Below, one piece after another: positions 27,585 to 33,448 of a DNA stretch of 64,000 nt. The DNA lies in assembly GCA_028823485.1 (NCBI GenBank), contig JAPKBG010000004.1, forward strand, positions 62,001 through 126,000, given 5' to 3'. The DNA is from Methylophilaceae bacterium. GTDB taxonomy: Bacteria; Pseudomonadota; Gammaproteobacteria; Burkholderiales; Methylophilaceae. A program made the position numbers and the translations under genes. The notes below the pieces were generated by a model. That model did not search any database and had not been told where the DNA came from. It saw only the letters and a program-made list of their open reading frames with translations. Position 1 is the first letter of the stretch. Every line of letters begins with the position of its first letter.

Positions 27585-28829
27585 TTAATTCTTAATCTGG
27601 TAGATATGGCGGAGCTGCTGCGCTAAACGTTCATGCTCGTCACCATGGCTTTGATTGAGCGCATGGCTAGGCGCATGCAGCATTTTATTGGCAATGGCTA
27701 AGCTGAGCTTTTCGAGGACTTTTTCTGGACTTTCACCTTTTTGAATCAGCTTTATTGCTTTTTCTAACTCAGCAGTACGCATGGTTTCAGCTTGGTCGCG
27801 TAGCGCTTTAATCGTTGGTACTGATTTACGCTTTTGTAACCAGTGCATAAAGGCTTCAACTCGCGTTGAGATAATCGTTTCCGCTGACATGGCCGCTTCT
27901 TGACGGTTTTCAATGCCGTCAGTCACAACTTGCGCCAAGTCATCCACGGTGTATAAAAACACATCATCTAATTGTACCACTTCAGCTTCGATATCACGCG
28001 GAACGGCTAAATCGACCATAAATATCGGGCGGTGCTTACGTGCTTTAATCGCGCGCTCTACCATGCCTAAACCAACAATTGGTAATTGACTGGCTGTGCT
28101 GGTGATGACGATATCAAAGTCAGCAAAATGTGCAGGTAAGTCATTCAATAAAATTGCCTCAGCATGAATTTTCCCTGCCAATTCTAAGCCGCGCTCTTTT
28201 GTGCGGTTGGCAACAGTCATGCTTTTTGGCTTTTGTGCCGCAAAGTGATTGGCACACAGTGTAATCATTTCACCTGCGCCAATGAATAGTATTTTTTGCT
28301 CGCACAGGTCGCCAAAAATACGTTGCGCTAATTTAACCGTGGCTGCAGCCATTGAAATGGAACTGCCACCAATGTCCGTATTAGTACGTACTTCTTTGGC
28401 CACTTCAAACGTGCGTTGAAATAGTTGGTGTAGGTGCGTGCCTAATGTACCCGCTTCTTGCGCTAGTTTGACTGACTGTTTGAACTGCCCGAGTATTTCT
28501 GGTTCGCCTAGCACCATACTGTCTAAACCCGAGGCCACTCTGAATGCATGTTTGACGGCTTCTTGATTAGCGAGGGTATAGGTGTAAGGCTGAATATGGT
28601 TTAAATCTAACTGGTGATAATCAGCTAGCCAGCCCATGACAGGTAGCGCGTCGGCTGATTGTACGTAAATCTCAGTGCGATTGCAGGTGGATAAAATCGC
28701 GGCTTCTGCTGCCTTTTTATTCGTTAAATCCGATAACGCTTTGCGTATGCTGTCCGCACCAAACGCGACATTTTCGCGAATTTCGATGGGGGCGGTGGTG
28801 TGATTCACACCTATGGTATACAACTGCAT
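27585..28829 (-). CDS. hemA: Glutamyl-tRNA reductase
   Basis: First committed step of C5 tetrapyrrole synthesis, 414 residues. The catalytic cysteine is in [11 protein letters not shown] (C49), and the NADPH-binding domain contains [11 protein letters not shown] near residue 184. Start and length are normal. The gene order hemA-prfA-prmC is widespread in proteobacteria. Divergent from rpe across 165 bases. Confidence 0.96.
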
Positions 28830-28994
28830 TTCCCTATTTTAACAAGTCATTGATGTTGTTGGAAAATAAACTCACGTTAAAATTGTGGTTGAGTTCACTA
28901 AAACATCGCCCCAGATGTTTATCCAAATAGTGAAATCAGGTTAAAATAGCGGAATAGTAGACCATATTCAAAATAGATAAAGACGGAAACCATT

Positions 28995-29702
28995 ATGAGC
29001 AAAGATTTTAGAATTGCCCCAAGTATTCTTTCAGCTGACTTTTCTAAGTTAGGTCAAGAAGTTGAAGATGTAATTAAATCAGGCACAGACCTTGTGCATT
29101 TTGACGTAATGGATAACCACTACGTGCCAAACTTAACAATCGGCCCACTAGTGTGTGACGCGATTCGCGATTTATCACATAAAGCTGGCGCATTGATTGA
29201 TGTGCATTTAATGGTGAAACCAGTTGATCGCATTATTCCTGACTTCGCCAAAGCAGGTGCGGATATCATTACTTTCCACCCTGAAGCCTCTGATCATGTC
29301 GACCGTAGCCTTGCGATGGTGCGCGAGTTGGGTTGTAAATCTGGCTTGGTATTTAACCCAGCAACATCATTGAGCTACTTAGATCACGTGATGGATAAAG
29401 TGGACATGATTCTATTGATGTCAGTTAACCCTGGTTTCGGCGGTCAAAAATTCATTCCAGAAACATTAGAAAAATTAAAGCAAGCACGTGCACGCATTGA
29501 TGCTTATGAAGAAAAAACTGGCCGTAAAATCTGGTTAGAAGTTGACGGTGGTGTAAACCCTGACAACATCGCTGAAATTGCAAAAGCGGGTGCAGATACA
29601 TTTGTAGCTGGTAGCGCCATCTTCGGTAAGCCAAATGATGCGGATGCAAACCGTTACAACACTGTTGTTGGTAAAATGCGTGACGCATTAGCAACTGTTT
29701 AA
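28995..29702 (+). CDS. rpe: Ribulose-phosphate 3-epimerase
   Basis: Interconverts ribulose-5-phosphate and xylulose-5-phosphate, 235 residues. The TIM-barrel motifs [30 protein letters not shown] (metal-binding His and Asp), [11 protein letters not shown] and [11 protein letters not shown] are all present. In a ribulose-monophosphate methylotroph this enzyme would help regenerate ribulose-5-phosphate. In many betaproteobacteria gph lies between rpe and trpE; here it is absent and the 140-base gap holds the trp leader candidate. Confidence 0.97.
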
Positions 29703-29710
29703 GCGGCACG

Positions 29711-29838
29711 AGGAAATGAATTTCCTTAAAAAGCATGTAGTGATGAGTTGGCGAAGCGGTTTGATTAGCAAATGGGGCTAAACATAGCTTCTCGCGCAGG
29801 CGCTAGCCTGCGCACATCGCAAAAATCTTTTTAAGGAA
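29711..29838 (+). promoter_or_regulatory. Candidate trp leader: alternative pairings, one covering the trpE ribosome-binding site
   Basis: Segment 1 (29711-29716, AGGAAA) can pair with segment 2 (29721-29726, TTTCCT) through a TGAA loop. Segment 2 and the bases after it (29722-29733, TTCCTTAAAAAG) are also perfectly complementary to 29827-29838 (CTTTTTAAGGAA), which includes the AAGGA that serves as trpE Shine-Dalgarno. The two pairings exclude each other. Between them lie a 12-codon frame with two Trp codons and a GC-rich hairpin at 29794-29813 (8-bp stem, GCTA loop). No U-run follows that hairpin, so control would be at translation initiation rather than classical termination. All pairings are read from sequence; function is inferred. 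Confidence 0.45.
29743..29781 (+). CDS. Putative trp leader peptide
   Basis: A 12-codon frame encoding MSWRSGLISKWG, with Trp at positions 3 and 11, ends 61 bases before the trpE ATG. A GTG one codon upstream (29740) is an alternative start. There is no convincing Shine-Dalgarno, which is the main weakness. Two Trp codons in twelve is more than expected by chance, and the position between rpe and trpE, immediately before a strong hairpin, is where a leader peptide would be. Could equally be a chance frame. Confidence 0.35.
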   Translation: MSWRSGLISKWG

Positions 29839-29842
29839 CATC

Positions 29843-31393
29843 ATGCTTCAAACAATTACAAAAACTGAATTCGACGCCTTGGCGCAACAAGGTTATAACC
29901 GTATCCCACTGGTGCAAGAAACTTTTGCCGATCTGGATACGCCATTATCGATATACCTTAAACTGGCTAATCAACCCTTTTCATACTTGTTAGAAAGTGT
30001 GCAAGGCGGTGAGCGTTTCGGCCGTTACTCCATCATTGGCTTACCTGCAAAAACACGCATCGTCGCGAACGGCTTTAGTGTGCAAGTGATGCAGGGTGAT
30101 GAGGTCTTGGAAACTCACGCTGACACCAATCCACTGGATTTCGTTAAAACCTTTCAAGCACGTTTTAAAACGCCGCCATATGAAGGGTTGCCACGTTTCA
30201 CAGGCGGATTAGCGGGCTACTTTGGTTACGAAACCATTCGTTATATTGAAAAGCGTTTAGCCAATAGCCAAAAGCTCGATGTCATCGGCACACCAGATGT
30301 GTTGCTCATGGTGTCAGAAGAGATTGCTGTAGTTGATAACTTAAGCGGCAAGCTTTACTTTATTGTCTATGCCAATCCAGAAGAAGACGGTGCTTACGGT
30401 AAAGCCCGTGAACGCATTCAAGACTTAATGCAGCAACTACGTCAGCCAGCCAAGATTCCTGAATCACTGCAATCAGCACCGACGGAAGCTAAGTCTGACT
30501 TTGGTCAAGAAAACTTTAAAGCTGCAGTCAAAAAAGTACAGGACTATATTTTTGAAGGTGACATCATGCAGGTGGTGTTAAGTCAACGCATGTCGCAAGA
30601 CTTTACGGGTTCGCCATTGTCTCTATACCGCGCACTTAGAAGCCTGAATCCATCACCTTATATGTTCTATTACGACATGGGCGACCATCACGTAGTCGGA
30701 GCTTCACCAGAAATCCTAGTGCGTTTAGAAGGTGGCGTGGTTACTTCACGGCCAATCGCCGGTACGCGCCCACGTGGCAAAACACGTGAAGAAGACATGG
30801 CATTATCTGAAGAGTTGCTAGCTGATCCTAAAGAGTGCGCAGAACATGTACAGTTGATGGACTTAGGCCGTAATGATGTTGGCCGTGTTGCCAAAACAGG
30901 CACAGTGAAAGTGACTGATAATATGATGATAGAGCGTTACTCACATGTAATGCATATTGTGAGTAATGTCGAAGGGCAATTAAAGCCGAATATGGATGCG
31001 ATTGATGTGCTCAAAGCCACGTTCCCAGCTGGCACGGTGTCAGGTGCGCCGAAAGTGCGGGCGATGGAAATTATTGATGAATTCGAACCAACTAAGCGCG
31101 GCATTTATGCTGGTGCAGTTGGTTACCTAGGCTTTAATGGTGATATGGATGTGGCGATTGCGATTAGAACCGGTGTCATTAAAGACAACAAGCTTTATGT
31201 GCAAGCAGGTGCTGGTATCGTGGCTGACTCTGTGCCACAAACCGAATGGGAAGAAACACAAAATAAAGCGAAAGCCGTGATTCGTGCAGCTGAAGTAGTA
31301 CAAGCAGGCTTAGATAACCAAGTACACCTGCAAGGGGTGCCCCCAACTCCACTAAATACTGAAGCATTAAGTCAGTTGAGAGAGGAAAAATAA
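29843..31393 (+). CDS. trpE: Anthranilate synthase component I
   Basis: Converts chorismate to anthranilate with ammonia from TrpG, 516 residues. The segment [19 protein letters not shown] contains the LLES motif of the tryptophan feedback site, and the C-terminal chorismate-binding domain shows [16 protein letters not shown] and [23 protein letters not shown] lies six bases before ATG and may be sequestered in the leader. The stop overlaps the trpG start in TAATG. Confidence 0.97.
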
Positions 31394-32980: not shown

Positions 32981-33448
32981 ATGATGAGAAGCTTAGGCTT
33001 GTTAATCGTTCTGTTGTTGAGTGTTGCTTGCTCGAAAACAGAGCAGTCTTCATTTGCAAATATTGAGTTGTCACCACAACAATTAGAAAGCATTAGTGAA
33101 GTTAAGCTCACGTCAGCCTTTTCTTCTGCAGCAGAGTTGTTTGCACAGCATGCTAACGATGAAATGGTCAAAGGACAGGGCGAAGTTGTACGCTTACTCG
33201 CGGGTGATAATAAAGGGCCTAGGCACCAAAAATTTTTAGTGGAAGTAGGCGGTGGACAAACACTATTATTTGCACATAACATTGATTTGGCGCTAAGAAT
33301 TAACGCGCTTAAAGTGGGCGACAACATTGAGCTTAGAGGTGAGTATAGTTATAACCCGAAAGGTGGCGTTGTTCACTGGACACAGTTGGATCCTAAAAAT
33401 CAGCATGAAGCGGGTTGGATTAAACATAACGGCATTACCTATCAGTAA
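32981..33448 (+). CDS. DUF3465 family lipoprotein within the trp operon
   Basis: A 155-residue predicted lipoprotein: signal with lipobox LSVAC (Cys17) and a DUF3465 domain recognisable from GPRHQKFLVEV, LLFAHNIDLALRINALKVGD, YSYNPKGGVVHWT and GWIKHNG. The fold is likely a small beta barrel. It starts one base after trpD and is 30 bases before trpC, so it is co-transcribed with tryptophan genes, although a periplasmic or outer-membrane lipoprotein has no obvious role in that pathway. The function of the family is unknown. Confidence 0.82.
   Translation: MMRSLGLLIVLLLSVACSKTEQSSFANIELSPQQLESISEVKLTSAFSSAAELFAQHANDEMVKGQGEVVRLLAGDNKGPRHQKFLVEVGGGQTLLFAHNIDLALRINALKVGDNIELRGEYSYNPKGGVVHWTQLDPKNQHEAGWIKHNGITYQ

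Follow-up and report, generated by a model that had tools for sequence, protein, structure and literature searches.

The window analysed here is a 64,000-nucleotide stretch of a Methylophilaceae genome in which rpe, trpE, trpG, trpD, a small ORF without a family match and trpC follow one another in that order. The start of trpG overlaps the last base of trpE by one base. The ORF between trpD and trpC (32981–33448, 155 amino acids) has a lipoprotein-like start and no NCBIfam match. The gap between rpe and trpE is occupied by a 21-codon frame with two Trp codons, whose ATG lies 13 nt behind the rpe stop and which has an internal ATG at 29743. The features of the region are as follows.

28995–29702, plus strand: rpe, ribulose-phosphate 3-epimerase (ORF; TIGR01163 match over cut-off)
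29711–29716/29721–29726, plus strand: 6-bp hairpin AGGAAA/TTTCCT, present but not conserved, and not counted in the mechanism
29716–29781 (stop included), plus strand: trp leader frame, 21 codons plus TAA, MNFLKKHVVMSWRSGLISKWG (ORF reading; Trp-rich leaders in the family)
29722–29733, plus strand: 5′ arm (anti-SD arm), leader codons 3–6, TTCCTTAAAAAG (perfect complement of 29827–29838; arm co-change)
29749–29751, plus strand: first Trp codon, leader codon 12, the proposed stall site (frame reading; ribosome-masking model)
29773–29775, plus strand: second Trp codon, leader codon 20 (in the model, the SD stays nearly closed with a ribosome at this codon)
within 29740–29820, plus strand: possible inner helix, 29740–29745/29815–29820 in the minimum-energy fold, or 29751–29756/29815–29820 as in most of the genus
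29794–29813, plus strand: GC hairpin without a U-run (genus alignment; terminator scan)
29827–29838, plus strand: 3′ arm, CTTTTTAAGGAA, holding the trpE SD TTAAGGAA at 29831–29838 (pairing; SD cover)
29843–31393, plus strand: trpE, anthranilate synthase component I (ORF; TIGR00564 match over cut-off)

An earlier, sequence-only reading of this DNA had described a 12-codon frame with two Trp codons. Both codons are present, but the 12 codons are only the 3′ part, from the ATG at 29743, of the 21-codon frame. As that frame starts at the ATG at 29716, the 5′ arm lies inside it. Relative to five other aligned sequences of its genus, the window leader carries a 15-nt in-frame insertion. The two arms, claimed to be perfectly complementary over 12 nt, are exact reverse complements. 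This is the longest inverted pair within 29703–29842; pairs of at least 12 nt arose in 1 of 2000 dinucleotide shuffles, and an exact complement of the SD arm in none of 2000 shuffles of 29703–29826. The segment 29690–29870 folds with −59.5 kcal/mol (z −5.0), and none of 200 shuffles was as low.

The inner helix is paired in 88.9% of cells of the genus alignment, with no pair changed on both sides. The GC hairpin, which had been proposed together with its lack of a U-run, is indeed there without one; it is paired in 87.5% of cells in six genus sequences, and 2 of its 8 pairs show changes on both sides. Two such pairs over the whole structure were reached by 48 of 500 shuffles, and the covariation score was matched by 3 of 500. 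The 6-bp hairpin at 29711–29716/29721–29726, put forward as a competitor of the arm pairing, exists in the window sequence but is absent from the other genus members examined, and it was dropped as a part of the switch. Its absence there makes it likely that the ribosome itself is the switch, with no rival hairpin.

The region upstream of trpE was compared at 121 Methylophilaceae loci, made up of the window, 80 named loci and 40 from further genomes; the latter two groups share members, and the number of independent genomes is therefore below 121. By the pattern used, 101 of the 121 loci (duplicates included) have a Trp-rich frame beginning with ATG ahead of trpE, and the other 20 do not. One of these (L023) is cut by a contig end. 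By eye, L113 has a single Trp and a visible arm, L130 a frame with a TTG start, and L075 a single-Trp frame. The remaining 16 (L134–L149) belong to two small-genome genera (g13 and g15); in L140, L144, L147 and L149 a few bases separate trpE from the gene upstream. At L134, a perfect inverted repeat of roughly 14 nt sits immediately upstream of trpE, in a gap of some 50 nt in which no Trp leader was found. In L083, from the genus of the window, the first Trp codon and one arm pair are lost, and two Trp codons are kept.

Outside the family, hand-picked Trp-rich frames precede trpE at 26 of 60 Burkholderiales loci (20 families by their labels), these 60 being a subset of the matches listed, and at 15 of 40 loci from other orders of the class, the 40 being drawn from 92 genomes with a match. 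Seven loci with longer gaps or doubtful frames (L159, L198, L200, L201, L203, L208 and L209) were excluded from the order-level count beforehand; weak or odd class-level loci (L214, L231 and L247) were retained. Two of the excluded loci, L159 and L198, have a Trp leader and a longer gap to trpE, with a hairpin followed by a T-run, resembling a classical attenuator. Dereplication of the family and order samples left 89 loci, 63 from the family and 26 from the order level.

In 53 of these 89 loci the rare Arg codon CGA directly follows the first leader Trp codon (29752–29754 in the window); within the beginning of trpE at these loci, 16 of 311 Arg codons are CGA. CGA might be decoded slowly and so help the stall, or it might reflect a constraint on the local RNA. 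Pairing with the gap was rejected as the reason for keeping CGA, as only 10 of 76 CGA codons lie within a complement of at least 6 nt. A second Trp leader, before trpF, was also considered and rejected. Some Trp-rich frame occurred there in 9 of 30 loci examined (of 40 matched), with no shared peptide or position, and these were taken as chance. In the genome of the window (L254), a Trp-containing frame, MAVAQWCEKYWVNLDLLYIKNL, ends 55 nt before trpF; it is absent from the other 29 loci and is probably also due to chance.

Within the genus of the window, 11 of the 12 arm pairs are invariant among six sequences, and this level is therefore little informative about pairing. Across genera the arm sequences differ and their complementarity is kept. 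Examples of arm parts (5′ and 3′) are TAATTTTCTAAGT and ACTTAGAAAATTA in L004, ATTTCCTATCCTGAG and CTCAGGATTAGGGGAT in L076, and ACGCCCGAATCCTGA and TCAGGATTCGGGAGT in L117. We compared the duplex energy of each locus's own two regions with that of pairs swapped between loci, after removal of near-duplicates. Of these regions, one comprised all leader codons that separate the start codon from the first Trp codon, and the other the 34 nt preceding the start of trpE. In the family (n=50) own pairs averaged −13.0 kcal/mol and swapped pairs −7.5 kcal/mol (z −13.1), a difference reached in 0 of 20,000 permutations. The order-level set gave z −8.9 (n=24; 0 of 20,000). The window's own arm pair (−20.9) was better than all 49 swapped partners, which holds for only 12 of the 50 loci.

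Swaps confined to GC quartiles gave z −14.5 (0 of 20,000) for all sets together, including the class level and omitting L156 (n=79). Controls treated in the same way gave z +0.9 for the leader arm against trpE codons, −1.7 for the leader arm against the middle of the gap and −0.2 for the sequence upstream of the leader against the SD region. With free swaps, two of the controls had reached z −3.2, falling to −0.2 and −1.7 within quartiles; in an earlier free-swap run the control upstream of the leader against the SD region gave z −3.7. The Trp-codon region, taken with the SD region as the fourth control, showed no covariation with it within GC quartiles (z −0.9). The Trp-codon region has a complement of at least 5 nt in the gap at 66 of 88 loci, against 40.6 expected, corresponding to the inner helix, but this pairing showed no covariation by the swap test (z −1.4). 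The class set alone gave z −6.0 (0 of 20,000) when the 12 nt before the leader ATG were included, and z −2.7 (82 of 20,000) within GC quartiles and without those 12 nt. In L156 (about 270–395), the two arms, in the leader and around the trpE SD, constitute a perfect palindrome of 26 bp with the look of a simple repeat; an interspersed repeat may have inserted there and now supply both arms.

The position of the pairing was examined across loci. An arm of sufficient length is present in 87 loci. At least three SD bases are paired in 71 of them, and the pairing energy is at or below −10 kcal/mol in 61, the arms of about 26 being weaker. Among these 61 strong pairings the trpE SD is covered in 55, and likewise in 55 at most 15 nt separate the end of the 5′ arm from the first Trp codon; neither count has a chance rate, and both follow in part from the regions compared. 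A ribosome halted at the first Trp codon would, in the latter 55 loci, have the end of the 5′ arm within or directly beside its footprint.

The effect of such a ribosome was estimated with a model in which ribosomes mask the RNA that they occupy. In the window, the modelled cost of opening the trpE start is 13.4 kcal/mol with no ribosome; it falls to 7.0 once a ribosome has the first Trp codon in its A site, and to 4.0 when queued ribosomes are added to this stall. With the ribosome at the second Trp codon or at the leader stop the cost is 13.1 and 13.0 kcal/mol, respectively. Over the 89 loci, mean modelled relief is 3.2 kcal/mol for a stall at the first Trp codon and 7.6 with a queue; for a ribosome at the last Trp codon it is 1.3, and for one at the leader stop 0.9. 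Relief becomes steadily smaller the further the ribosome has moved and does not peak at the Trp codon, and at L156 a stall at Trp yields none. In the model, a lone stalled ribosome opens the SD in part only, and the full effect requires a queue. The sequence-only reading had left open whether stalling would expose or hide the trpE start; the model favours exposure, and no modelled position raised the cost in the window.

Leader ATGs as a group carry no SD signal: the mean anti-SD duplex is −1.64 against −1.47 in shuffles (p 0.17), compared with −4.92 at the trpE starts, where the signal is strong. They lie close behind the preceding gene. In the family, the distance from the upstream stop to the leader start has a median of 16.5 nt (60 of 63 loci readable), with 43 loci at 30 nt or less and seven overlapping by 4 nt; at the order level the median is 18.5 nt (24 of 26 readable), with 18 at 30 nt or less. 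Sites resembling a −10 element occur before the leader ATGs at shuffle level (15 of 63 against 15.5 in the family, 3 of 26 against 2.4 at the order level), and shifted windows in the family gave 7–12. Leaderless translation of the leader is not favoured. From the closeness to the upstream stop and the lack of a group SD signal, we infer that termination–reinitiation from the upstream gene is probably the simplest source of ribosomes for the leader.

Taken together, these results point to a translational trp attenuator upstream of trpE, a reading to which we assign a probability of about 0.78. In a leader free of ribosomes, the start of the leader frame would pair with the trpE SD region and block initiation, as the covariation and folding suggest. 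Ribosomes would probably reach the leader by termination–reinitiation from the gene whose stop it adjoins, rpe here or a different one in relatives. When Trp-tRNA is ample, the model predicts that the ribosome runs on to the leader stop, leaving the 5′ arm free and the SD paired. When it is scarce, the ribosome would stall at the first Trp codon, and its trailing edge, with any queued ribosome, would occupy or disturb the 5′ arm, so that the SD opens and trpE is translated. trpG, with its one-base overlap, may follow through coupling. The core of the sequence-only reading, namely that a Trp leader governs whether the trpE SD is accessible, as a translational variant of attenuation, finds support in sequence comparison and modelling. 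Loss of the Trp codons among relatives, or uncompensated variation of the arms, would have spoken against it; Trp codons recur and the arms change together.

In classical trp transcription attenuation, stalling would instead decide whether an antiterminator or a terminator (intrinsic or Rho-dependent) prevails upstream of trpE. The Trp leader peptide, placed in front of trpE as it is in E. coli, speaks for this, and terminator-like sites exceed shuffles outside the family (9 of 26 loci against 3.2 expected at the order level, 4 of 15 against 0.9 at the class level), so that some members there may use termination too. A terminator scan of 28700–30000 gave no sites, against 1.3 in shuffles, and an intrinsic terminator in the window was rejected on this and on a second scan, which recovers the E. 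coli trp terminator; family loci have terminator-like sites at 6 of 63, against 4.8 expected. Rfam gave no match in the window, to Trp_leader or to any other family, and none above threshold at 15 loci, where the only sub-threshold matches were to a microRNA family on the L156 palindrome. The leader was not assigned to the classical trp attenuators, because a terminator is absent from the window and not above chance in the family. With the arm co-change specific to the SD region, we consider transcription attenuation an unlikely account of this locus. A translational block of a first gene often leads to polarity, and one leader could govern both trpE initiation and transcription, through lost translation or a weak terminator (polarity, Rho). 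The excess of terminator-like sites outside the family would fit such a mixed device, but the window has no terminator and the family no excess, and we judge it improbable here.

The helix and short frame might also do no more than couple trpE translation to the upstream gene, with the Trp codons having no role as a sensor. The placement of leaders close behind the upstream stop and without an SD of their own would suit this. Against it, Trp makes up 233 of 1489 leader residues in the 89 dereplicated loci, a Trp-rich small frame lies upstream of just 3 of the 53 window genes examined, that of trpE included, and trpF in the family has no common Trp leader; coupling alone thus seems very improbable. 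That the complementarity is a product of chance or of a repeat is scarcely credible. The inserted-repeat look of the L156 palindrome is in its favour, yet 1 in 2000 shuffles reaches the window pairing, and arm co-change, which persists without L156, contradicts it at the family level.

The preferred reading, translational attenuation, suggests that many relatives may read the Trp signal at translation initiation, without a terminator or a conserved pairing sequence. As no pairing sequence is conserved, family models would miss such leaders. The leaders would form a set of natural switches in which the arms differ and the logic stays, and the relation between transcriptional and translational attenuation becomes testable by comparison. 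Should the leader receive its ribosomes from those that complete the upstream gene, Trp synthesis would also be tied to that gene's translation. A wider proposal, possible but on balance doubtful, is that a reinitiation-fed translational trp attenuator is old and widespread in beta- and other gammaproteobacteria, with the E. coli transcription attenuator as one of several later or parallel outputs on such leaders, and with arms that evolve fast under a pairing constraint only. Such fast evolution, if true, would explain why searches with sequence and covariance models miss these leaders.

The trp operon is the textbook example of transcription attenuation. Like the E. coli trp attenuator (trpL; Rfam Trp_leader), the leader described here is a short frame with Trp codons directly before trpE, with ribosome stalling as its proposed sensor. 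Unlike it, the window has no intrinsic terminator with a U-run and no Rfam match, and the leader arm pairs with the trpE SD. Translational attenuators such as ermC and secM–secA also release a downstream SD when a ribosome halts on the leader frame, as proposed here, but the halt there is due to a drug or to the nascent peptide, whereas here it would be due to missing charged tRNA.

Judged from titles and abstract openings, in a search with most of the subscription literature outside it, no paper was recognised that deals with such a trpE device in beta- or gammaproteobacteria, and the parts seen of PMC2965389, PMC8632094, PMC10272879, PMC3766115 and PMC4633059 describe no such trpE system. 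The amino acid attenuators in Rfam are mostly gammaproteobacterial, according to the part of PMC3766115 that was consulted. Attenuation by overlap with the ribosome-binding site was outlined by Lopatovskaya et al. 2010, as cited in PMC4833913; judged from that one-line mention alone, the principle is the same. The nearest published relative found, among sources seen in part, is the actinobacterial LEU element. In it the SD of leuA pairs with codons of the leader, namely with the run of Leu codons itself, and a pseudoknot was proposed (PMC1262725, consulted in part). As far as that account goes, the two differ in phylum and amino acid, and here the arm lies upstream of the Trp codons, the Trp-codon region itself not covarying with the SD. 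They share a leader that contains codons for the amino acid product and pairs with the SD of the first biosynthetic gene (PMC1262725).
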